Of a stretch of 64,000 bases of DNA, positions 16,253 to 27,678 are shown in pieces (position 1 is the stretch's first letter; every line of letters begins with the position of its first letter). The notes under the pieces are model-generated. The model was not told the origin of the DNA. It ran no database searches and saw nothing but the letters and a program-made list of their open reading frames with translations. The DNA comes from Hyphomicrobiaceae bacterium. Lineage in GTDB: Bacteria > Pseudomonadota > Alphaproteobacteria > Rhizobiales > Hyphomicrobiaceae. The DNA lies in the NCBI GenBank assembly GCA_016793635.1, contig JAEUMD010000025.1, forward strand, positions 1-64,000, given 5' to 3'. The position numbers were made by a program, and so were the translations under genes.

Positions 16253-16636
16253 ATGATGGCGGGCACGGGCACCAGGATCGTCGTCGGAGCCTTCGTCGCG
16301 GCGCTGGCGTCGTCCTCGGCATGGGCGCAGAACGCCGCCGAGGGCGAGAAGCGTTTCGTCGTGTGCAAAGCCTGCCATACGGTCGAATCCGGCGGCCGCC
16401 ACGGCGTCGGCCCGAACCTCCACGGCGTCTTCGGGGCGAAGGCCGGCACCAAGGGAGGCTTCGCCTTCTCGCCGCCGCTCAAGGACTCGAACATCGTCTG
16501 GGACGACGCCAACATGGCGAAGTACATCGAGAACCCGCGCACCTTCATCCCCGGCAACAAGATGGCCTTCCCCGGCGTCAAGCAGGAAGCGCAGATCAGG
16601 GACATCATCGCCTACCTCAGGCAGGCGACGAAGTAG
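16253..16636 (+). CDS. Class I c-type cytochrome, cytochrome c2-like
   Basis: A 127-residue periplasmic monoheme cytochrome. A signal peptide ends at AWAQ (about 26). The heme motif CKACH is at 38-42 and the axial methionine is probably M104 in NKMAFPG. Length and motif spacing fit small cytochrome c2/c552 types. It is 2 nt upstream of soxY, so it is likely the electron acceptor for the SoxYZ-linked reaction. Two ATGs three bases apart are both usable starts. SoxX was considered, but no SoxA partner follows. Confidence 0.92.
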
Positions 16637-16638
16637 GC

Positions 16639-17082
16639 ATGGACCGACGCAGCATCATCCTCGGCGCGGGCGTTGCGGCATCGCTGCTGGCGTTGCTGCC
16701 GAAGGCGGCCCGGGCGACGCCGCAGGCTGCGGCCGATCTCCTGGGAAAGCTGGTGAAGGGCACGCCGCAACCGGGCCGCATCCGCCTGCTGGCGCCCGAC
16801 ATCGCCGACAACGGCGCCGCGGTGCCGCTGACGGTCGCGGTCGAAAGCCCGATGACCGATGCCGATCACGTGACCGCTATCCACGTCGTCGCCGACGGCA
16901 ACCCCAGCCCGGGCGTCATCAGCGTCAGGCTCGGCCCGCACAACGGCAAGGCCGAGGTCTCGCTTCGAATCCGGCTTGCGGCAAGCGAGAAGGTGATCGC
17001 GGTCGCCGAGATGAAGGACGGGAGCTTGTGGATCGCGAGCCGCGATGTCGCAGTGACCGTCGGCGGCTGCGGAGCGAACTGA
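16639..17082 (+). CDS. soxY: Thiosulfate oxidation carrier protein SoxY
   Basis: A 147-residue periplasmic protein with a twin-arginine-like start (MDRRSIILGAG) and a C-terminal VGGCGAN. The cysteine of the C-terminal GGCG(G/A) tail is the one that carries sulfur intermediates covalently in the Sox system. The stop overlaps the soxZ ATG as TGATG, so the two are translationally coupled. No soxAX, soxB or soxCD lies in the window. The pair may therefore act in a partial pathway, for example polysulfide or sulfite handling, rather than full thiosulfate oxidation. Confidence 0.92.
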   Translation: MDRRSIILGAGVAASLLALLPKAARATPQAAADLLGKLVKGTPQPGRIRLLAPDIADNGAAVPLTVAVESPMTDADHVTAIHVVADGNPSPGVISVRLGPHNGKAEVSLRIRLAASEKVIAVAEMKDGSLWIASRDVAVTVGGCGAN

Positions 17083-17411
17083 TGGCCCAGGACATCCAGC
17101 CCCGCATCCGCATCCCCTCGCAGATCAGGATGGGCGAGGTGATCGAGGTGAAGACCCTGGTCACCCACGAGATGGAGTCGGGCCAGCGTCGCGACTCGAA
17201 CGGCGCGCTGGTGCCGCGCCGGATCATCAACAGGCTGACCTGCTCCTACAACGGACGGCCGGTGTTCGAGGCGGCGCTCGAGCCGGCGGTTTCGGCCAAT
17301 CCCTACATCGCCTTCTTCCTGAGGGCGACCGAGAGCGGCACGCTCGACTTCGCCTGGACCGACGACGACGGCACCGTTTATCGCGCCAAACAGTCGATAA
17401 AGGTCGGCTGA
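17082..17411 (+). CDS. soxZ: Thiosulfate oxidation carrier complex protein SoxZ
   Basis: A 109-residue immunoglobulin-like protein, partner of SoxY. PRIRIPSQIRMGEVIEVKTLVTHEMESGQRRDS at the N-terminus and INRLTCSYNGRPVFEAAL in the middle are close to canonical SoxZ. It has no signal peptide, as expected: SoxZ is carried out by SoxY through the Tat route. Coupled to soxY by a 1-nt overlap. It forms the SoxYZ heterodimer on which sulfur is processed. Confidence 0.93.
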   Translation: MAQDIQPRIRIPSQIRMGEVIEVKTLVTHEMESGQRRDSNGALVPRRIINRLTCSYNGRPVFEAALEPAVSANPYIAFFLRATESGTLDFAWTDDDGTVYRAKQSIKVG

Positions 17412-21041: not shown

Positions 21042-22346
21042 TCAGGCGCGAGGCTTCGCCTCCGGACGCAGCTTCTCGATCCCCATCAGCTTCATGACAA
21101 GGTGCTCGTAGCCGGGCTCGCTGGTCCCCTTGCGCACCTTGCGGAGGAAGTACTTCTCGAAGGCGACCTTGGCCGCGTGGACCCAGTAGCCCTGGCTCGA
21201 CCAGTTGACGTTGCGCGGCGGGATCTGCGGCTGGGCGACGAAAGCGATGCCGTCATTGCCGAAGTCGGCCAAGCACACGGCATTCCAGGTTGGCTCGCGC
21301 GTCGGCTCCCTGCCCGCGAGGAGGTCGCGGATGTTGTGGGCGACGGCCGTCACCATCGACTCGATCATGTAGCCCGTCTTGGGCACACCGACCGGTACCG
21401 GCGTCGCCTCGACCGGCGGGATCGCGACGCAGACGCCGACCGCGAAGACGTTCGGGAAGGTAGGATTGCGCTGGAACCTGTCGACCAGCACGAAGCCGCG
21501 CGGATTGGTGAGGCTCGCGATCCACGTGCCGTCATCCTGCTTGAGGCAAGGGCTTCCGCGGAAGGCTGGGATGAACATGGAGAGCTTGGCGGGCAGGGTC
21601 TGCGAGCGCTTGGCGCCGCCGTCCTCGCCGACTTCCGTCACCGTGACGCTGTCGGGAGCGACCCGGTCGACCTTTGCGCTGGTGATCCATTTGACGTCGC
21701 GGTCGCGGAAGGCGGACTCGAGCATGCCTTTCGTGTCCCCGACTCCGCCCAGGCCGAGATGGCCGACATAGGGTTCGGAAGTGACGAAGGTGATCGGCAC
21801 GCGGTCGCGGATCTTCCGCTTGCGGAGGTCGGTGACCACCATCATCGCGAACTCGTAGGCCGGTCCGAAGCACGACGCACCCTGCACCGCGCCAATCACC
21901 ATGGGGCCGGGATCCGCGCAGAAGCGCTCCCAGCGCTCGGCGGCGGCGGCCGCGTGGTCGACGTGGCAGACGGAGATCGAGTTGTGCTCGGGGCCAAGCC
22001 CCTCGATCTCGTCGAAGGCGAGCGCGGGGCCTGTCGCGATGACGAGGTAGTCGTACGAAAGGCGGCTGCCGTCGCGGAGCTCGACGGCATTCTCCTTCGC
22101 ATGGACGAGCCGGACGCCGGCTGCCGAGAAGCCGATGCCTTTGCGGGCGAACACTTCGGGGAGGTGGACCTTGACCTGCTCGGGCTTTCGCCATCCGAGC
22201 GTCACCCACGGATTCGATGGGACGAACTGGAACCACTCCGAATCGGAGACCGCCATGATCTCCGCGTCGCCGCCGAGGAGGTCCCGAAGCTCGAAAGCCA
22301 TCGGCACGCCGCCGATGCCCGCACCCACCACGATGATCTTCGTCAT
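21042..22346 (-). CDS. sqr: Sulfide:quinone oxidoreductase
   Basis: A 434-residue flavoprotein that oxidises sulfide to polysulfide or persulfide and reduces quinone at the inner membrane. The FAD motif VVGAGIGGVPMAFEL is at 6-20. Three cysteines stand where SQR needs them: C127, C159 (GASCFGPAYEF) and C358 (AVCLADFG). The 32-residue gap between the first two equals that of the Aquifex enzyme. PVPVGVPKTGYMIESM contacts FAD. It is the last gene of an ArsR-DUF2892-SQR operon and ends convergently with the SAF oxidoreductase. A flavocytochrome c sulfide dehydrogenase subunit is less likely, as there is no Tat signal or cytochrome partner. Confidence 0.9.
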   Translation of the reverse strand: MTKIIVVGAGIGGVPMAFELRDLLGGDAEIMAVSDSEWFQFVPSNPWVTLGWRKPEQVKVHLPEVFARKGIGFSAAGVRLVHAKENAVELRDGSRLSYDYLVIATGPALAFDEIEGLGPEHNSISVCHVDHAAAAAERWERFCADPGPMVIGAVQGASCFGPAYEFAMMVVTDLRKRKIRDRVPITFVTSEPYVGHLGLGGVGDTKGMLESAFRDRDVKWITSAKVDRVAPDSVTVTEVGEDGGAKRSQTLPAKLSMFIPAFRGSPCLKQDDGTWIASLTNPRGFVLVDRFQRNPTFPNVFAVGVCVAIPPVEATPVPVGVPKTGYMIESMVTAVAHNIRDLLAGREPTREPTWNAVCLADFGNDGIAFVAQPQIPPRNVNWSSQGYWVHAAKVAFEKYFLRKVRKGTSEPGYEHLVMKLMGIEKLRPEAKPRA

Positions 22347-22471
22347 GGCGCTCTCCTTCTGCGCGCGCTGCCACCGAGGCCGCGGTCCGGCGAGCGGGCC
22401 TTGATCTCGATCAAGGAGCGCGCGCCGGCTTCCGTCACCATGGCCTCATGGGAGCGAGGCGGGTTCCGAAC

Positions 22472-22675
22472 TCAGTTGAACGCGCAGCCCGGTCGCGCGC
22501 CGAGGCGCTTGAAGACGATCGCCGCCGGGCAGAAGCCGGTGAGCGACGCCTGGATCAGGTTGATCCCGACGAAGGCGTTGAGCAGGAACCAGTAGGGGCT
22601 GTGGAAATAGCCGAGCGCGAGGCTGGCCAGGACCATGAAGCCTGCGAAGGCCATGACGGCTTTGTCGATCGACAT
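22472..22675 (-). CDS. DUF2892 (YgaP-like) membrane protein
   Basis: A 67-residue protein with two hydrophobic segments (about 7-25 and 28-52) and the conserved FVGINLIQASLTGFCPAAIVFKRLG of the DUF2892 family. This domain is the membrane anchor of rhodanese YgaP in E. coli, and here it stands alone. It lies between the ArsR repressor and SQR with a GGAG-type ribosome site, as in other sulfide-response operons. Its biochemical role is unknown; two cysteines (one in the FCPA motif) could carry sulfane sulfur. Confidence 0.88.
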   Translation of the reverse strand: MSIDKAVMAFAGFMVLASLALGYFHSPYWFLLNAFVGINLIQASLTGFCPAAIVFKRLGARPGCAFN

Positions 22676-22696
22676 CGGAGTCTCCTTTCGAGAGCG

Positions 22697-22990
22697 CTAG
22701 TTGCAGTAGAGGCGGTAGAGGAGGCCGATCACCTTCCGGGCCTCCGGACTGGCGAGCGAGTAGTAGATCGTCTGGGCTTCGCGGCGGGTCGCGACCAGGC
22801 CGTCGCGCCGCAGCTTCGCCAGGTGCTGGGACAGCGGCGACTGCTTCAGCCCGACGAGCTTCTCCAGCTCGCCGACCGAACGCTCCCCGTCGTGCAGTTC
22901 GCACAGGATCATCAGGCGGTAGGGGTTCGACAGGGCGCGCATCAGGCCCGTCGCCTCGTCCGCCCGCTTCTTCATCGCCCGTATATTCAT
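22697..22990 (-). CDS. ArsR family repressor, SqrR/BigR-like persulfide sensor
   Basis: A 97-residue winged-helix protein (ALSNPYRLMILCELHDGERSVGELEKLVGL ... LSQHLAKLRRDGLVATRREAQTIYYSLA). It has just two cysteines, C30 and C96. Their 66-residue spacing equals that of C41 and C107 in SqrR, which form an intramolecular polysulfide bridge on exposure to persulfide. The metal-site cysteines of ArsR/SmtB (CxC) are missing. The ATG at 22990 lies 7 nt after a -10 element, so the mRNA may be leaderless; ATG at 22975 is the alternative. It heads the DUF2892-SQR operon and faces an RND operon. Confidence 0.88.
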   Translation of the reverse strand: MNIRAMKKRADEATGLMRALSNPYRLMILCELHDGERSVGELEKLVGLKQSPLSQHLAKLRRDGLVATRREAQTIYYSLASPEARKVIGLLYRLYCN

Positions 22991-22992
22991 AT

Positions 22993-23020
22993 TTGCTAAA
23001 TTAGATATAGCTAATATATA
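22993..23020 (+). promoter_or_regulatory. Possible promoter of the RND operon
   Basis: On the plus strand TTGCTA (22993-22998) and TATATA (23015-23020) are 16 bp apart and overlap the same palindrome. If used, the RND operon and the arsR operon would share one operator. The adaptor gene ATG follows 29 nt later with GGAG at a 7-nt distance. Confidence 0.4.
22997..23018. promoter_or_regulatory. Palindromic operator between divergent sulfide-repressor and RND operons
   Basis: A 22-bp imperfect palindrome whose core is ATTAG-N6-CTAAT, with one mismatched pair further out. It covers the spacer and -10 of the arsR promoter and is the most AT-rich stretch in the region. This is where an ArsR-type repressor would bind. 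Because it lies between two divergent operons it could control both. Confidence 0.65.
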
Positions 23021-23026
23021 TGTCAA
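22998..23026 (-). promoter_or_regulatory. Sigma70-type promoter of the arsR-DUF2892-sqr operon
   Basis: Read on the minus strand: a perfect -35 TTGACA (23026-23021), a 17-bp spacer and -10 TAATTT (23003-22998). Transcription would begin at about 22991-22990, at the first ATG of the repressor. Confidence 0.75.
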
Positions 23027-23049
23027 GTGTCCTTCGACGGAGTGACGTG

Positions 23050-24030
23050 ATGATCTTCAGGCTTCCAAGCTTCGCGGCGGCGTTGATCGCCCTGTTGCCG
23101 GCGGCGTTCGCCGCCGAGCCGGGCCACCCGGTGGCCCGCGTCGACGTCGACGACCGCAAGGCGGTGATCGCGACCGTGGAGACCTTGCGCGAAGTCCAGG
23201 CCCGGGCCCGGATCGGCGGCACGGTCGGACAGCTTCTCGTGCGCGAAGGCGATCGGATCGCGGCGGGCGGCCGCATCGCGCTGGTCGTCGACGAGAAGCT
23301 CGCGCTACAGGTCCAGGCCGTCGACGCCCGGATCCAGGCGCAGCAGGCGCAACGCGACCAGGCGCGCATCGACTTCGACCGGGCCGAGGACCTGCGCCGG
23401 TCCGGCACGGTTGCCCAGGCCCGCGTCGACGAGGCCAGGACCCGTCTCGACGTGGCGGAGAGGACCCTCCGCGCCGTCCGCGCCGAACGCGACGTGCTTC
23501 TCCAGCAGTCGGCCGAAGGCGCGGTTCTCTCGCCGGGGCCCGGCCGCGTCCTCCGCGTTCCGGTGAACGAGCGCAGCGTCGTGCTCGCCGGCGACGCCAT
23601 CGCAATGATCGCGACCGACGCCTATGTGCTTCGGCTCCGGCTGCCCGAGCGGCACGCCCTCAGCCTCAAGGCCGGAGACACGATCCTGGTCGGCGCGCGC
23701 GGCCTGCAGGCGTCCGGAGCGCCGGAGATCCTGCGCCCCGGGCGGGTCGTCCTGGTCTATCCGCAGATCGACCAGGGGCGCGTCGTCGCCGATGTCGAGG
23801 TCGACGGGCTCGGCGACTACTTCGTCGGGGAGAGGACGCGCGTCTATGTCTCCACCGGAACACGAAGCGCCTTCGTCGTCCCGCCGGACCTCGTGGCCAG
23901 GCGTCATGGCGTCGACTACGTGCGGCTCGCCAACGGCACCGACGTCGTGGTTCAGGTCGGCGCCGCCACCGACAAGGGCATCGAGATCCTTGCCGGGCTT
24001 CGCGACGGCGACCGGGTGATCAAGCCATGA
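23050..24030 (+). CDS. RND efflux periplasmic adaptor subunit
   Basis: A 326-residue membrane-fusion protein: signal peptide ending at about AFAAE (22), a split biotinyl/lipoyl hairpin domain (QARARIGGTVGQLLVREGDRI and GAVLSPGPGRVLRVPVNERSVV) around a short coiled coil (about 85-150), then beta-barrel and membrane-proximal domains. It links the inner-membrane pump to an outer-membrane channel; no channel gene is adjacent. The ATG has GGAG 7 nt upstream. Stop and start overlap the pump gene by 4 nt. Confidence 0.9.
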   Translation: MIFRLPSFAAALIALLPAAFAAEPGHPVARVDVDDRKAVIATVETLREVQARARIGGTVGQLLVREGDRIAAGGRIALVVDEKLALQVQAVDARIQAQQAQRDQARIDFDRAEDLRRSGTVAQARVDEARTRLDVAERTLRAVRAERDVLLQQSAEGAVLSPGPGRVLRVPVNERSVVLAGDAIAMIATDAYVLRLRLPERHALSLKAGDTILVGARGLQASGAPEILRPGRVVLVYPQIDQGRVVADVEVDGLGDYFVGERTRVYVSTGTRSAFVVPPDLVARRHGVDYVRLANGTDVVVQVGAATDKGIEILAGLRDGDRVIKP

Positions 24031-27000
24031 AGCTCGGACTTTCGGGCGTCCTCACCCGGGCGTTCATCGTCTCGCCACTTACGCCGCTGCTGCTGCTGGC
24101 GGCGCTGGCGATGGGCATGCTGGCGCTGATGGCCCTCCCGCGCGAGGAGGAGCCCCAGATCAGCGTGCCGATGGTCGACATCCTGGTCGCCGCCAACGGC
24201 TATCGTGCCGGCGACGCGATCGAGCTGATCACGCGGCCGCTCGAAGACATCGTCAAGGGCATCGACGGCGTCGAGCACGTCTATTCGAGCACCCAGGACG
24301 ACTCCGTCGTCACCACGGCCCGGTTCCTCGTCGGCACCGACCAGGACGCGGCGATGCTCCGCGTGCATGAGAAGATCCGCGCGAACATCCGCGACCTGCC
24401 CAAGGGCATCCCCGAGCCGGCGATCGTCGGTCGTGGCATCAACGACGTCGCGATCGTCGTGCTCACACTCGAGCCGAAGGCCGAGCAGGCGGGCCGATGG
24501 GACCCGAACGGCCTGTTCCAGGTGGCCCAGGAGCTTCAGCACGAGCTGGTCAAGGTCGACGACGTGGGATTGAGCTACATCGTCGGCGGCAGCCCCAGCC
24601 AGATCCGGATCGAGCCTGACCCGGAGCGCCTGTCGCTCTACGGCATCACGCTCAACCAGCTCGTCGACAAGCTGACCAATGCGAACCGCTCGTTCCTGGT
24701 CGGCGCCTACCGCGACCAGGGGCGCAATGTGCCGGTGCTGGCCGGCCAGACGCTCCAGGGCGTCCCCGATATCGGGCTCCTCCTGCTCACGTCGCGTGAC
24801 GGCCGGCCGGTCTACGTCAAGGACGTGGCGGACGTCGTCGTCGGCGGCTCCGAGCCGGACTTCCGCGCCTGGCGCTTCACGCCCGACGCCTCGGGCGCGC
24901 TCGACCGCAGGCCGGCCGTCAGCATCGCCTTCGCCAAGCGCAAAGGCGCCAACGCCGTCACCGTCGCCGGCGATCTGATCGACCGCCTCGAAAGCGTGAA
25001 GGGCCGCGTGGTTCCCGAAGGCCTCGCCGTCAGCGTCAGCCGCAACTACGGCGAGACCGCCAGCGACAAGGCGGACGAGCTGCTGTTCCACCTCGCGCTG
25101 GCGACGGTCTCGATCGTCATCCTGATCACGCTGGCGATCGGCTGGCGCGAAGGCGTGGTCGTCATGGTGGTGATCCCGACGACGATCCTGCTGACCCTCT
25201 TCGCCGCCTGGCTGATGGGCTACACGATCAACCGGGTCAGTCTCTTCGCGCTGATCTTCTCGATCGGCATCCTGGTCGACGACGCCATCGTCGTGGTCGA
25301 GAACATCGTCCGTCACTGGCATCGGCGGGGCGAGGGGGATCTCGTCGCGAAGGCGGTGGACGCGGTCGCCGAGGTCGGCAACCCCACCATCGTCGCGACG
25401 CTGACGATCGTCGTGGCGCTGCTGCCGATGATGTTCGTCAGCGGGCTGATGGGCCCCTATATGAGCCCGATCCCCGCGAACGCTTCGATGGCGATGCTGT
25501 TCTCGTTCTTCGTCGCGGTCACGGTCACGCCCTGGCTTCTCTATCGCATCGCCGCGCGCCGCTTCGCCGGCCCGCACGGCGGCGGACACGGGGCGCATGA
25601 GGAGCAGGGCGGCGCGCTCGGGCGCCTCTACCTGGCGATCGCAAGGCCCCTGCTTGCCGGCCGGGTTCGCTCCAAGCTCTTCCTGCTGACGGTCGGCGCC
25701 GCGACGGTCGCGGTCTGCGTCCTGTTCGCGACCCGCGACGTGACCGTCAAACTGCTGCCATTTGACGACAAGTCGGAGTTTCAGGTGGTGGTCGACCTGC
25801 CGGCCGGCTCGACCCTCGAGGACACCGAGCGCGTGCTCGCTGCGGCGGCCGAACGCCTGCGCGCCCTGCCCGAGCTCGCCTCGGTCGAGGCCTATGCCGG
25901 TACCGCGGCGCCGTTCAACTTCAACGGCCTCGTCCGGCATTCCTATCTCCGCCGCAGCCCGGAGCTTGGCGACCTGCAGGTCAACCTGCGGCCGAAGTCC
26001 GAGCGCGACCGCGGCAGCCATGCGATCGCGCTGGAAGGACGCCGCCTCCTCGCCGACCTGCCACGTCCCGAGGGCACGGTGATCAAGGTGGTCGAGGTTC
26101 CGCCCGGCCCGCCGGTGCTGGCGACCCTGCTGATCGAGGTCTACGGGCCGGACCAGGAGACCCGGGCCACGACGGCGCTGAAAATCCGCGAGGCCTTCGC
26201 CGGCGTCGACTTCATCGTCGACATCGACGATACGCTGCGCAAGCCGGGGGAGCGGCTTCGCTTCGCCATCGATCAGGAGAGCCTCGAGTTCCACGGCGTC
26301 GAGGAGCAGGCCGTCTACGACACGATCGCCGCCATCGTCGGCGGCGTGAAGATCGGCTACTCGCAACGCGGCGCCGGATCCAAGCCCGTCGACATCTCGA
26401 TCGCCCTGCCGAAGTCGGCGCTGTCGCCGGGCGAGCGCATCCTCTCGACCCCGGTCCCGGCCGGCGGCACGAGGCGGGAGGGCGCCAATGTCGAGCTCGG
26501 CGACGTCGTGACGCTGGTGCGCGAGCCGGCCTCGCACACGATCTTCCGGCGCAACGGGCGGTTCGCCGAGATGGTGACCGCCGAACTTGCCGGGGCCTTC
26601 GAGGCGCCGATCTACGGGATGCTCGCGGTCGAGGACCGTCTCGCCGCGATGGACTGGGGTCCGGGCGGGCCTCCTGTGGTCGGCTATCACGGACAGCCGA
26701 AGGACGAGTCGAAGGCCTCGCTTCTGTGGGACGGCGAGTGGGAAGTCACCTACGTCACCTTCCGCGACATGGGTGCGGCCTTCGGTGTGGCCATCCTCGG
26801 CATCTACCTGCTGGTGGTGGCGCAGTTCGGATCGTTCCGGCTGCCGCTGGTCATCCTGGTACCGGTACCGCTGACCCTGATCGGCATCGTTCTCGGCCAC
26901 TGGGCCTTCTCCGCGCCGTTCACCGCGACCTCGATGATCGGCTTCATCGCTCTGGCCGGGATCATCGTCCGCAACTCGATCCTGCTGGTCGACTTCATCC

Positions 27001-27263
27001 GGCACCGGCGCGAGGCGGGCGAGCGCCTCAGGCCGGCGCTGCTCGAAGCCGGCGCCATCCGGATCAAGCCGATCGTCCTGACCGCCGCGGCGGCCATGAT
27101 CGGGGCGGCCTTCATCATCGGCGACCCGATCTTCCAGGGCCTGGCGCTGTCGCTCGTCTTCGGGCTGGCGTCTTCGACGGTCCTGACCCTGCTGGTGATC
27201 CCGGCGATCTACGTTTGGCTGCGGGACGACGAGCCGAAGGTCAGGCCTCTATCTGCTGGCTGA
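24027..27263 (+). CDS. RND efflux permease, AcrB/HAE1 family
   Basis: A 1078-residue proton-driven pump with two repeats of one plus five membrane helices and large periplasmic loops. The paired aspartates of the proton relay are D418-D419 in GILVDDAIVVVENI. A histidine-rich cytoplasmic stretch at about residues 515-527 (GPHGGGHGAHEEQ) follows helix 6. CusA-type metal pumps have a conserved methionine set that I cannot confirm here. The position across the palindrome from the sulfide repressor suggests it exports something made under sulfide stress. It overlaps trxC tail-to-tail by 23 nt. Confidence 0.92.
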   Translation: MKLGLSGVLTRAFIVSPLTPLLLLAALAMGMLALMALPREEEPQISVPMVDILVAANGYRAGDAIELITRPLEDIVKGIDGVEHVYSSTQDDSVVTTARFLVGTDQDAAMLRVHEKIRANIRDLPKGIPEPAIVGRGINDVAIVVLTLEPKAEQAGRWDPNGLFQVAQELQHELVKVDDVGLSYIVGGSPSQIRIEPDPERLSLYGITLNQLVDKLTNANRSFLVGAYRDQGRNVPVLAGQTLQGVPDIGLLLLTSRDGRPVYVKDVADVVVGGSEPDFRAWRFTPDASGALDRRPAVSIAFAKRKGANAVTVAGDLIDRLESVKGRVVPEGLAVSVSRNYGETASDKADELLFHLALATVSIVILITLAIGWREGVVVMVVIPTTILLTLFAAWLMGYTINRVSLFALIFSIGILVDDAIVVVENIVRHWHRRGEGDLVAKAVDAVAEVGNPTIVATLTIVVALLPMMFVSGLMGPYMSPIPANASMAMLFSFFVAVTVTPWLLYRIAARRFAGPHGGGHGAHEEQGGALGRLYLAIARPLLAGRVRSKLFLLTVGAATVAVCVLFATRDVTVKLLPFDDKSEFQVVVDLPAGSTLEDTERVLAAAAERLRALPELASVEAYAGTAAPFNFNGLVRHSYLRRSPELGDLQVNLRPKSERDRGSHAIALEGRRLLADLPRPEGTVIKVVEVPPGPPVLATLLIEVYGPDQETRATTALKIREAFAGVDFIVDIDDTLRKPGERLRFAIDQESLEFHGVEEQAVYDTIAAIVGGVKIGYSQRGAGSKPVDISIALPKSALSPGERILSTPVPAGGTRREGANVELGDVVTLVREPASHTIFRRNGRFAEMVTAELAGAFEAPIYGMLAVEDRLAAMDWGPGGPPVVGYHGQPKDESKASLLWDGEWEVTYVTFRDMGAAFGVAILGIYLLVVAQFGSFRLPLVILVPVPLTLIGIVLGHWAFSAPFTATSMIGFIALAGIIVRNSILLVDFIRHRREAGERLRPALLEAGAIRIKPIVLTAAAAMIGAAFIIGDPIFQGLALSLVFGLASSTVLTLLVIPAIYVWLRDDEPKVRPLSAG

Positions 27264-27678
27264 CCCAGCGGCGAAGCTCGCCGGGAGGAAGCGCGCCCGA
27301 GCGGCGGGCGATTTCCTTGCCGCCCTTGAAGATCACGAGCGTCGGGATCGCCTGGATGCGATAGCGGGCGGCCAGCCCTTGCTCCGCATCCGTGTCGACC
27401 TTGGCGAGCCGCGCCTTCGGCTCGATCTCGGCGGCCGCCGCCTCGAACACCGGCGCCATGGTCCGGCACGGGCCGCACCATGGCGCCCAGAAATCGACCA
27501 CCAGCGGCAGCTCGGAGCCGGCGTGCTTGTCGAAGCGCGCGGTATCCAGTGCCACGGGCTTTGCCTGGAATAGCGGTTGGCCGCACTGGCCGCATTTGCC
27601 GCCCTGCCCGAGCCGCTCCACCGGCACACGGTTCAAGGTATCGCAGCTCGGGCAGGGAATGATCTTCGACTCGGCCAT
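27241..27678 (-). CDS. trxC: Thioredoxin TrxC (thioredoxin 2)
   Basis: A 145-residue thioredoxin with an N-terminal zinc ribbon (C9, C12, C29, C32: PCPSC and CGQCG) and the active site WCGPC at 67-71. This is the oxidative-stress thioredoxin of proteobacteria, a cytoplasmic disulfide reductase. The cis-proline segment [11 protein letters not shown] is present. It is monocistronic and converges with the RND gene. Being next to a sulfide-stress locus may or may not be meaningful. Confidence 0.94.

Follow-up and report, generated by a model that had tools for sequence, protein, structure and literature searches.

Published work on the betaproteobacterium Azospira suillum, and on the two-cysteine repressors of the ArsR family that sense sulfane sulfur, comes closest to the locus that we analysed, which occupies positions 21042-27263 of a 64,000-nt stretch of a Hyphomicrobiaceae genome (GenBank assembly GCA_016793635.1, contig JAEUMD010000025.1, positions 1 to 64,000; hereafter the window) and which combines genes for an ArsR repressor, a YgaP-like/DUF2892 protein and a sulfide:quinone oxidoreductase (SQR) with those for an RND efflux pump. 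In A. suillum PS, an operon with RND, SQR and adaptor genes (Dsui_3440-3443) was highly expressed under H2S-oxidising conditions and was implicated by Bar-seq (PMC5358917, 2017; here, as for the other papers cited, our statements refer to the parts consulted). In the tested sensors of the SqrR group, as reported for SqrR, BigR, YgaV and HlyU, the two cysteines become linked through sulfane sulfur and the repressor is released from its operator (PMC10509353, PMC9774250, PMC12423496), and the SqrR site, ATTC-N8-GAAT, occurs also at ygaVP (PMC9774250). According to a survey of sHdrR and SoxR, ArsR proteins responding to sulfane sulfur appear to act on RND pumps in addition to sqr, sox, pdo, rhd, TauE, SoxT and PmpAB (PMC12423496, 2025).

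The minus strand of the window carries an operon of ArsR (22697-22990), YgaP-like/DUF2892 (22472-22675) and SQR (21042-22346), and the plus strand carries, in divergent orientation, an RND adaptor/permease pair (23050-27263). The start codons of the two operons are 60 bp apart and one palindrome (23000-23015) lies between them. The initial annotation had placed ArsR at the head of a DUF2892-SQR operon, with the RND pair facing away from it across a shared palindrome, and all these parts are present. On the comparisons reported below, bacteria exposed to H2S seem to switch on an efflux pump and a sulfide-oxidising enzyme under one sulfur-sensing switch, and the co-regulation of pump and sulfide oxidation appears well supported. 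The best overall explanation, to which we give a probability of roughly 0.7, is that a persulfide-sensing ArsR controls SQR, the YgaP-like protein and the pump. The grouping of these genes is beyond chance, as judged by neighbourhood counts and by the promoter footprint. The locus looks like a further case of a known but under-described sulfide-response module, whose linkage looks ancestral to the RND subfamily. The initial annotation had also proposed that a pump, and not only an oxidase, is part of the sulfide/persulfide response: the neighbourhood and the palindrome, both sequence evidence only, speak for this, but the idea is not new, since it was already in print in 2017 (PMC5358917) and in 2025 (PMC12423496).

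To describe the neighbourhood we considered three sets of permease loci. The near-relative set was drawn from 40 relatives, own genome included, and gave 19 permease matches at E 1e-120, representing 18 genomes plus a paralogue in the own genome. The phylum draw consisted of 398 genomes drawn evenly, again with the own genome included, and gave 34 matches at E 1e-290. The named-genome set was represented by the best 80 of at least 572 permease relatives; two near-relative loci, both unlinked, recur in it with identical permeases. ArsR, DUF2892 and SQR were sought with profiles built from the loci themselves, and we considered as linked any locus in which at least one of the three lay within 6 kb of the permease. 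The phylum draw contained 29 linked loci among 33 (all three genes in 18), the named-genome set 62 among its best 80 (all three in 27) and the near-relative set 7 among 19 (all three in 2). Two control sets gave no linkage: 0/10 loci of a sister RND family from the same genomes, with an identity of about 46%, and 0/8 other RND permeases of the own genome. The conserved neighbourhood, by which the initial annotation had proposed to check its idea, was therefore found. Among the 18 unlinked loci of the best 80 named ones, 8 have less than 3 kb of upstream sequence, and the linked ones include Hyphomicrobiales, Rhodospirillales, Acetobacterales, Maricaulales, Sneathiellales, Rhodobacterales and Caulobacterales.

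The reverse search, counted by hand, started from matches to this SQR at E 1e-90. Leaving the own genome aside, 29 genomes of its class had such an SQR, and 23 of them had the permease within 6 kb; outside the class, at a permease cut-off of 1e-240, the figure was 2 of 57. We also picked by hand 20 lower-scoring permease loci, 18 of them outside the class, preferring open frames near 1100 aa and taking one for most families. ArsR or DUF2892 stood beside the RND gene in 12 of these, all 12 outside the class; SQR was present as well in 2, and the ArsR of one of the 12 (L215) has no cysteine pair. Within 8 kb of the permease, linked loci further contain genes for rhodanese (30/99), a TolC-type channel (12/99), an MBL-fold, persulfide-dioxygenase-like protein (6/99) and CydA (5/99), each of which was found in 0/34 unlinked and 0/10 control loci. 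In the 34 unlinked loci, no neighbour cluster other than RND and adaptor genes was shared by more than five, except for a group present in 13 of them that seems to be an antisense frame within the permease gene.

Among linked loci there are 33 gene arrangements, some of them artefacts of overlapping open reading frames (ORFs) or contig ends, and eight arrangements occur in at least five loci each. The gene order thus varies with the linkage kept, which argues against passive hitch-hiking. In a FastTree phylogeny of 143 permeases, rooted on the sister RND family, linked loci are found at the base and throughout; we read this as a linkage that is old, has been repeatedly lost and would be kept by selection. 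Of the 18 unlinked permeases outside the group of 19 described below, seven have less than 3 kb upstream. The permease is also present on plasmids (40 records). The conjugative plasmid pISP1 of Sphingomonas sp. MM-1 (L235) carries an FAD/NAD(P)-binding oxidoreductase, DUF2892, a TolC-type channel, rhodanese, the RND pump, ArsR and cytochrome bd, a cluster that looks like a transferable sulfide-tolerance island, and a Vibrio plasmid carries DUF2892 with adaptor and permease.

The palindrome ATTAGATATAGCTAAT (23000-23015; ATTAG-N6-CTAAT, or ATTA-N8-TAAT) is the candidate operator for both operons. It is the sole ATTM-N8-KAAT site in the window and has the same 16-bp 4-8-4 geometry as ATTC-N8-GAAT, with arms ATTA/TAAT instead. 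Sites were counted over 260 bp around the start of each adaptor gene. No adaptor lay within reach in four of the 133 loci, and of the 30 unlinked promoters that were left five were omitted (two duplicates and three too short), so that 99 linked and 25 unlinked promoters were compared. ATTM-N8-KAAT was present in 19/99 linked and 9/25 unlinked promoters, against means of 0.9 and 0.6 and maxima of 4 and 3, respectively, in dinucleotide shuffles. With any other spacer from 4 to 13 we found 0-4 linked and 0-1 unlinked promoters, hence the enrichment is at spacer 8 only. The print-derived form ATTC-N8-GAAT gave 3/99 linked and 6/25 unlinked, and at most 1 at any other spacer. Pumps without adjoining sulfur genes thus appear often to keep the site, and we regard this as the weightiest operator result. 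A scan of the own genome returned 33 ATTM-N8-KAAT sites, many of which may be due to chance, versus 3 for the reversed pattern.

Around the operator, a block TTGCTAAWTTAG-N5/6-CTAATATAT, often followed by TGTCAA, was recognised by one of two patterns in 21 of 25 chosen loci; its flanks differ between loci, and the remaining 4/25 have no match. Candidate overlapping divergent promoters (22993-23026), similar in relatives, were recognised by eye. Precisely, the boxes facing the pump are TTGCTA (22993-22998) and TATATA (23015-23020), the box facing ArsR-DUF2892-SQR is TTGACA (minus strand, 23026-23021), and the palindrome lies between the boxes. A sigma-70 consensus scan of 22900-23150 called no promoter above threshold, and for this reason the boxes, which rest on inspection by eye and on conservation, are tentative.

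The repressor (22697-22990, minus strand, 97 aa) is a two-cysteine ArsR, probably of the persulfide-sensor type, judging from its HTH_5 domain, its match to HlyU and its conserved cysteines. If the start codon is the ATG that aligns with HlyU, the cysteines are C30 and C96, 66 residues apart, and there is no other; the numbering C42/C108 requires an upstream TTG start. The two cysteines 66 residues apart and the lack of a CxC motif, as read in the initial annotation, are confirmed by inspection of the sequence. The ArsR fold is predicted by PF01022 (HTH_5; 48.3 bits, cut-off 22), and the best PDB matches are HlyU (100.8 bits), BigR (83.2) and entries named 'ArsR family' (82.8), which we take to be SqrR. 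The crystal sequences of HlyU, BigR and YgaV match over nearly the full length, and the two cysteines, C30 in the N-terminal half and C96 close to the C-terminus, both align with those of HlyU. By fold and cysteine pair, the protein would therefore belong to the SqrR/BigR/YgaV/HlyU group of persulfide sensors, whose members form a tetrasulfide bridge with persulfides and then no longer bind DNA. The label 'SqrR-like' given to it in the initial annotation holds in the sense of this shared group and not of SqrR itself, because HlyU, and then BigR, score higher. With the BigR equivalog NF040642 it reached 95.5 bits, below the cut-off of 155, which makes it a relative short of assignment to BigR. 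The first cysteine is kept in 84/84 neighbouring ArsR proteins and the second occupies the same column in 70/84. In distant lineages (L118, L159, L164, L166, L172-L175, L177-L179) the second cysteine comes earlier (e.g. TLCDIYR versus LYRLYC), and it is absent at loci L170 and L181. That the repressor senses a metal rather than sulfane sulfur is hardly credible to us: it does pass the general NCBIfam metalloregulator ArsR model (88.8 bits, cut-off 55), but it has no CxC motif, its first cysteine is invariant among the neighbouring proteins, its best relatives are of the HlyU, BigR and SqrR type and the adjoining genes encode sulfur enzymes.

The SQR (21042-22346, minus strand, 434 aa), presumably of type I, has as its best PDB match by phmmer the sulfide-quinone reductase 3sz0 (472 bits, residues 3-430), which we take to be the Acidithiobacillus ferrooxidans protein. 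The full-length match to a solved SQR, together with the trio C127, C159 and C358, presumably the catalytic cysteines, identifies the product as a probable SQR. The initial annotation was right about this trio, but the protein has six cysteines in all (127, 143, 159, 267, 306 and 358) and not three. The trio is kept in 55/55, 55/55 and 54/55 neighbouring SQRs, respectively, the exception being a gap. The YgaP-like/DUF2892 gene (22472-22675, minus strand) encodes a small membrane protein of 67 aa (Pfam PF11127 'YgaP-like_TM', 44.4 bits, cut-off 25.3), whose Cys49, within TGFCP, is conserved in 93/93 aligned neighbours.

On the other side of the palindrome, the RND periplasmic adaptor (MFP; 23050-24030, plus strand) matches TIGR01730 RND_mfp with 104.1 bits (cut-off 94.9) when scanned from the ORF start at 23020; its start is likely the ATG at 23050, as 23020 falls inside the promoter. 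The permease (24027-27263, plus strand, 1078 aa) matches PF00873 with 468.4 bits (cut-off 28) and has D418 and D419, invariant across 9 aligned sequences, which we take to be the functional Asp-Asp pair of the RND transmembrane part; it would thus be an RND protein of the AcrB type (AcrB/AcrD/AcrF). It stays far below the cut-off of all 15 NCBIfam RND models that it matched, among them RND_permease_1, RND_permease_2, CusA/CzcA, AcrB, AcrD, MdtB, MdtC and OqxB. The permease contains the stretch LWDGEWE, which is present in 30/33 phylum-draw and 19/19 near-relative loci and in 0/10 sister and 0/19 more distant RND proteins, and its presence in all of the best 80 of at least 572 named relatives is partly circular, the peptide having been used in that search.

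These scores bear on what the pump may export. That it exports metals or metal-sulfide species, with sulfide sensing as a proxy for metal trouble, is the reading of the Azospira authors themselves, who considered metal-sulfide export (PMC5358917), and the match to the CusA/CzcA model covers almost the whole permease (residues 23-1068). The score of that match, however, is 262.8 bits, far below the cut-off of 701.45, and a multidrug model scores higher (397.2, with a cut-off of 1250); moreover, there is no cysteine in the adaptor and a single one in the permease, and the top PDB matches are named multidrug or unspecified efflux pumps, so that we rate metal export as distinctly improbable. Less improbable, though still unlikely in our judgement, is an envelope pump with a wide range of small-molecule substrates, hydrophobic or redox-active, that came under a persulfide sensor because such molecules accompany sulfide stress. 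The redox-controlled MexGHI-OpmD pump, with its small membrane protein MexG, would be a parallel. In favour of this reading, the permease is of the HAE/multidrug type, and a sister RND family that shares a channel-region motif with it lacks ArsR, DUF2892 and SQR in its surroundings; against it, the pump is tied specifically to SQR, rhodanese and further sulfur genes, and this tie looks ancestral.

The motif just mentioned, PFNFNGLVRHxxLR in the porter part, was considered as a cationic pocket for an anionic cargo and dropped, since 9/10 sister RND proteins share it; 0/19 more distant ones do. It was the only channel-region motif examined, and the sequence gave no specific clue to the substrate. 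The suggestion of the initial annotation that the pump exports organic persulfides or polysulfide-derived compounds accordingly found no support, the sister proteins with this motif having none of the three genes nearby. None of the six proteins scanned at 21042-27678 is an outer-membrane channel, the remainder of the window lying outside this search. Convergent to the permease, and overlapping its 3' end by 23 bases, is a gene for a TrxC-type thioredoxin (27241-27678, minus strand, 158.5 bits, cut-off 125). Thioredoxin-like BLAST matches occur in 15 of the best 80 of at least 572 named loci, a count that stands beside no control set, and the thioredoxin might be part of the persulfide response.

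Several observations weigh against common control of pump and sulfur genes by a persulfide sensor. As regards the neighbourhood, 12/19 near-relative loci are unlinked, and 34/133 loci of the family have none of ArsR, DUF2892 and SQR within 6 kb. The permease tree requires at least 18 changes between the linked and unlinked states, one group of 19 contains only 16 of the 34 unlinked permeases, and the lowest branch (L182) was flagged as a possible long-branch join. As regards the operator, the exact ATTM-N8-KAAT is absent from 80/99 linked promoters and from that of the paralogue in the own genome (contig C12), and the promoters of related species are not independent; the A/C arm was picked after a first look at the same promoters, and for this reason the spacer control is the better guide. 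In 14/84 ArsR proteins the second cysteine is off the aligned position (12 have it four residues earlier and 2 have none). Finally, deletion of the whole Azospira operon left the rate of H2S oxidation unchanged (PMC5358917), therefore the pump is not needed for H2S oxidation itself. Under a rival reading, the two operons would be neighbours under separate control, the palindrome serving the ArsR operon only: adjacency alone proves nothing, and the own paralogue and the unlinked near-relative loci exist without the module. We consider this very improbable, given that a single site lies in the short interval between the start codons, that its geometry persists at 9/25 pump promoters without the three genes nearby and that the linkage is kept through different gene orders.

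With control of both operons by one persulfide-sensing ArsR as the preferred reading, the system may work as follows. The two-cysteine ArsR, bound to one operator between the divergent promoters, would repress both operons. On entry of sulfide, sulfane sulfur would link C30 and C96 and ArsR would leave the operator, so that SQR, the YgaP-like protein and the adaptor/RND pump would rise together. SQR would oxidise sulfide to sulfane sulfur, the YgaP-like protein would perhaps act as a sulfur carrier or membrane partner, and the pump, probably with a shared TolC-type channel, would remove a toxic product of sulfide stress. The single site, the two operons and the putative sulfur-sensor type of the repressor rest on the sequence, and for the sensing chemistry, repression and induction by sulfide we infer from the tested sensors of the group. 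As for the cargo, our best guess is a small compound of sulfane sulfur, or else some other product that arises from sulfide toxicity. A more specific version would have the pump as a dedicated, ancestral exporter for sulfane sulfur or sulfide stress. Its RND subfamily would have evolved in Alphaproteobacteria together with SQR, the YgaP-like protein and the persulfide sensor, would have counterparts elsewhere in Pseudomonadota and would also travel on plasmids; it would export the persulfide or polysulfide made by SQR, so completing sulfide detoxification, and would often keep the sensor's operator outside the cluster. This version we hold as possible, if on balance doubtful.

Other sulfur loci are present in the window and in the own genome. 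About 4 kb from the SQR operon, at 16253-17411 (plus strand), there are a cytochrome c-like ORF (recognised by eye), a SoxY-like gene and SoxZ (102.9 bits, cut-off 76); the SoxY-like protein scores 124.8 bits against the SoxY cut-off of 125 and matches better the SoxY-related 'AACIE arm' model. Elsewhere in the genome (L211:4930-9440, contig C11), a second ArsR of the same type, probably a SoxR counterpart, stands beside SoxZ, SoxY, an SQR/FCSD-like flavoprotein and a small cytochrome-like protein. The paralogue of the pump (L023, C12:155310-158549) is 67% identical, and none of ArsR, DUF2892 and SQR lies close to it; its promoter carries TTTCGCAGTTGCGAAA, and a similar site is found in L022, of the same genus. 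On contig C11, ATTCGCTTCGTCGAAT (L244:7925-7940) is found upstream of another SQR gene, whose product shares 63% identity with that of the window, with no ArsR, DUF2892 or RND gene within the stretch examined.

Cells can rid themselves of excess sulfane sulfur by oxidising it with persulfide dioxygenase, by exporting sulfite and by transport of the YeeE type. A pump family whose position, ancestry and operator geometry all tie it to a persulfide sensor offers a concrete candidate for an efflux route. For annotation, such 'multidrug efflux' genes are probably sulfide-response genes. Our literature search, in which papers were mostly judged by title and few subscription journals were covered, returned no paper describing this RND subfamily, its operator or its spread, and none on RND efflux with persulfide or polysulfide or on YgaP with RND efflux. 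The 'sqrR' of PMC10128140 is, in the part consulted, a sigma-54 regulator and not an ArsR of this type.

Compared with the known systems, the sHdrR/SoxR survey has one sentence on RND targets, the parts consulted giving no RND family, operator, counts or controls (PMC12423496). The Azospira operon resembles that of the window in joining SQR with an RND permease and adaptor, and it has in addition a protein of unknown function; its DUF2892 gene is elsewhere (Dsui_0042, about 10-fold up), and, unlike in the window, ArsR is a term absent from the consulted text (PMC5358917), the two systems being likened here by description. With the SqrR/BigR/YgaV/HlyU group the window shares the ArsR fold and the two cysteines, and ATTC-N8-GAAT is the site for SqrR and YgaV (PMC9774250, PMC10509353); the ygaVP operon pairs the sensor with YgaP, the namesake of the membrane domain PF11127, much as ArsR is paired with DUF2892 here. 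The window differs from this group in its ATTA/TAAT arms, in having HlyU as the top-scoring relative and in missing the BigR cut-off. Paracoccus denitrificans PD1222 has on plasmid 1 a cluster (PDEN_RS23370-RS23430, L234) that differs by an MBL-fold hydrolase, YeeE and DUF6691 transporter genes, a TIGR01244 sulfur transferase and cytochromes, and in which RS23370 encodes a flavoprotein. Like the window, it brings together, within about 10 kb, DUF2892 (RS23390), the pump genes RS23385 and RS23380 for an adaptor and a permease (60% identical), and a two-cysteine ArsR (RS23405), and with these genes (PDEN_RS23380-RS23405) this laboratory strain is a tractable host for the efflux candidate.

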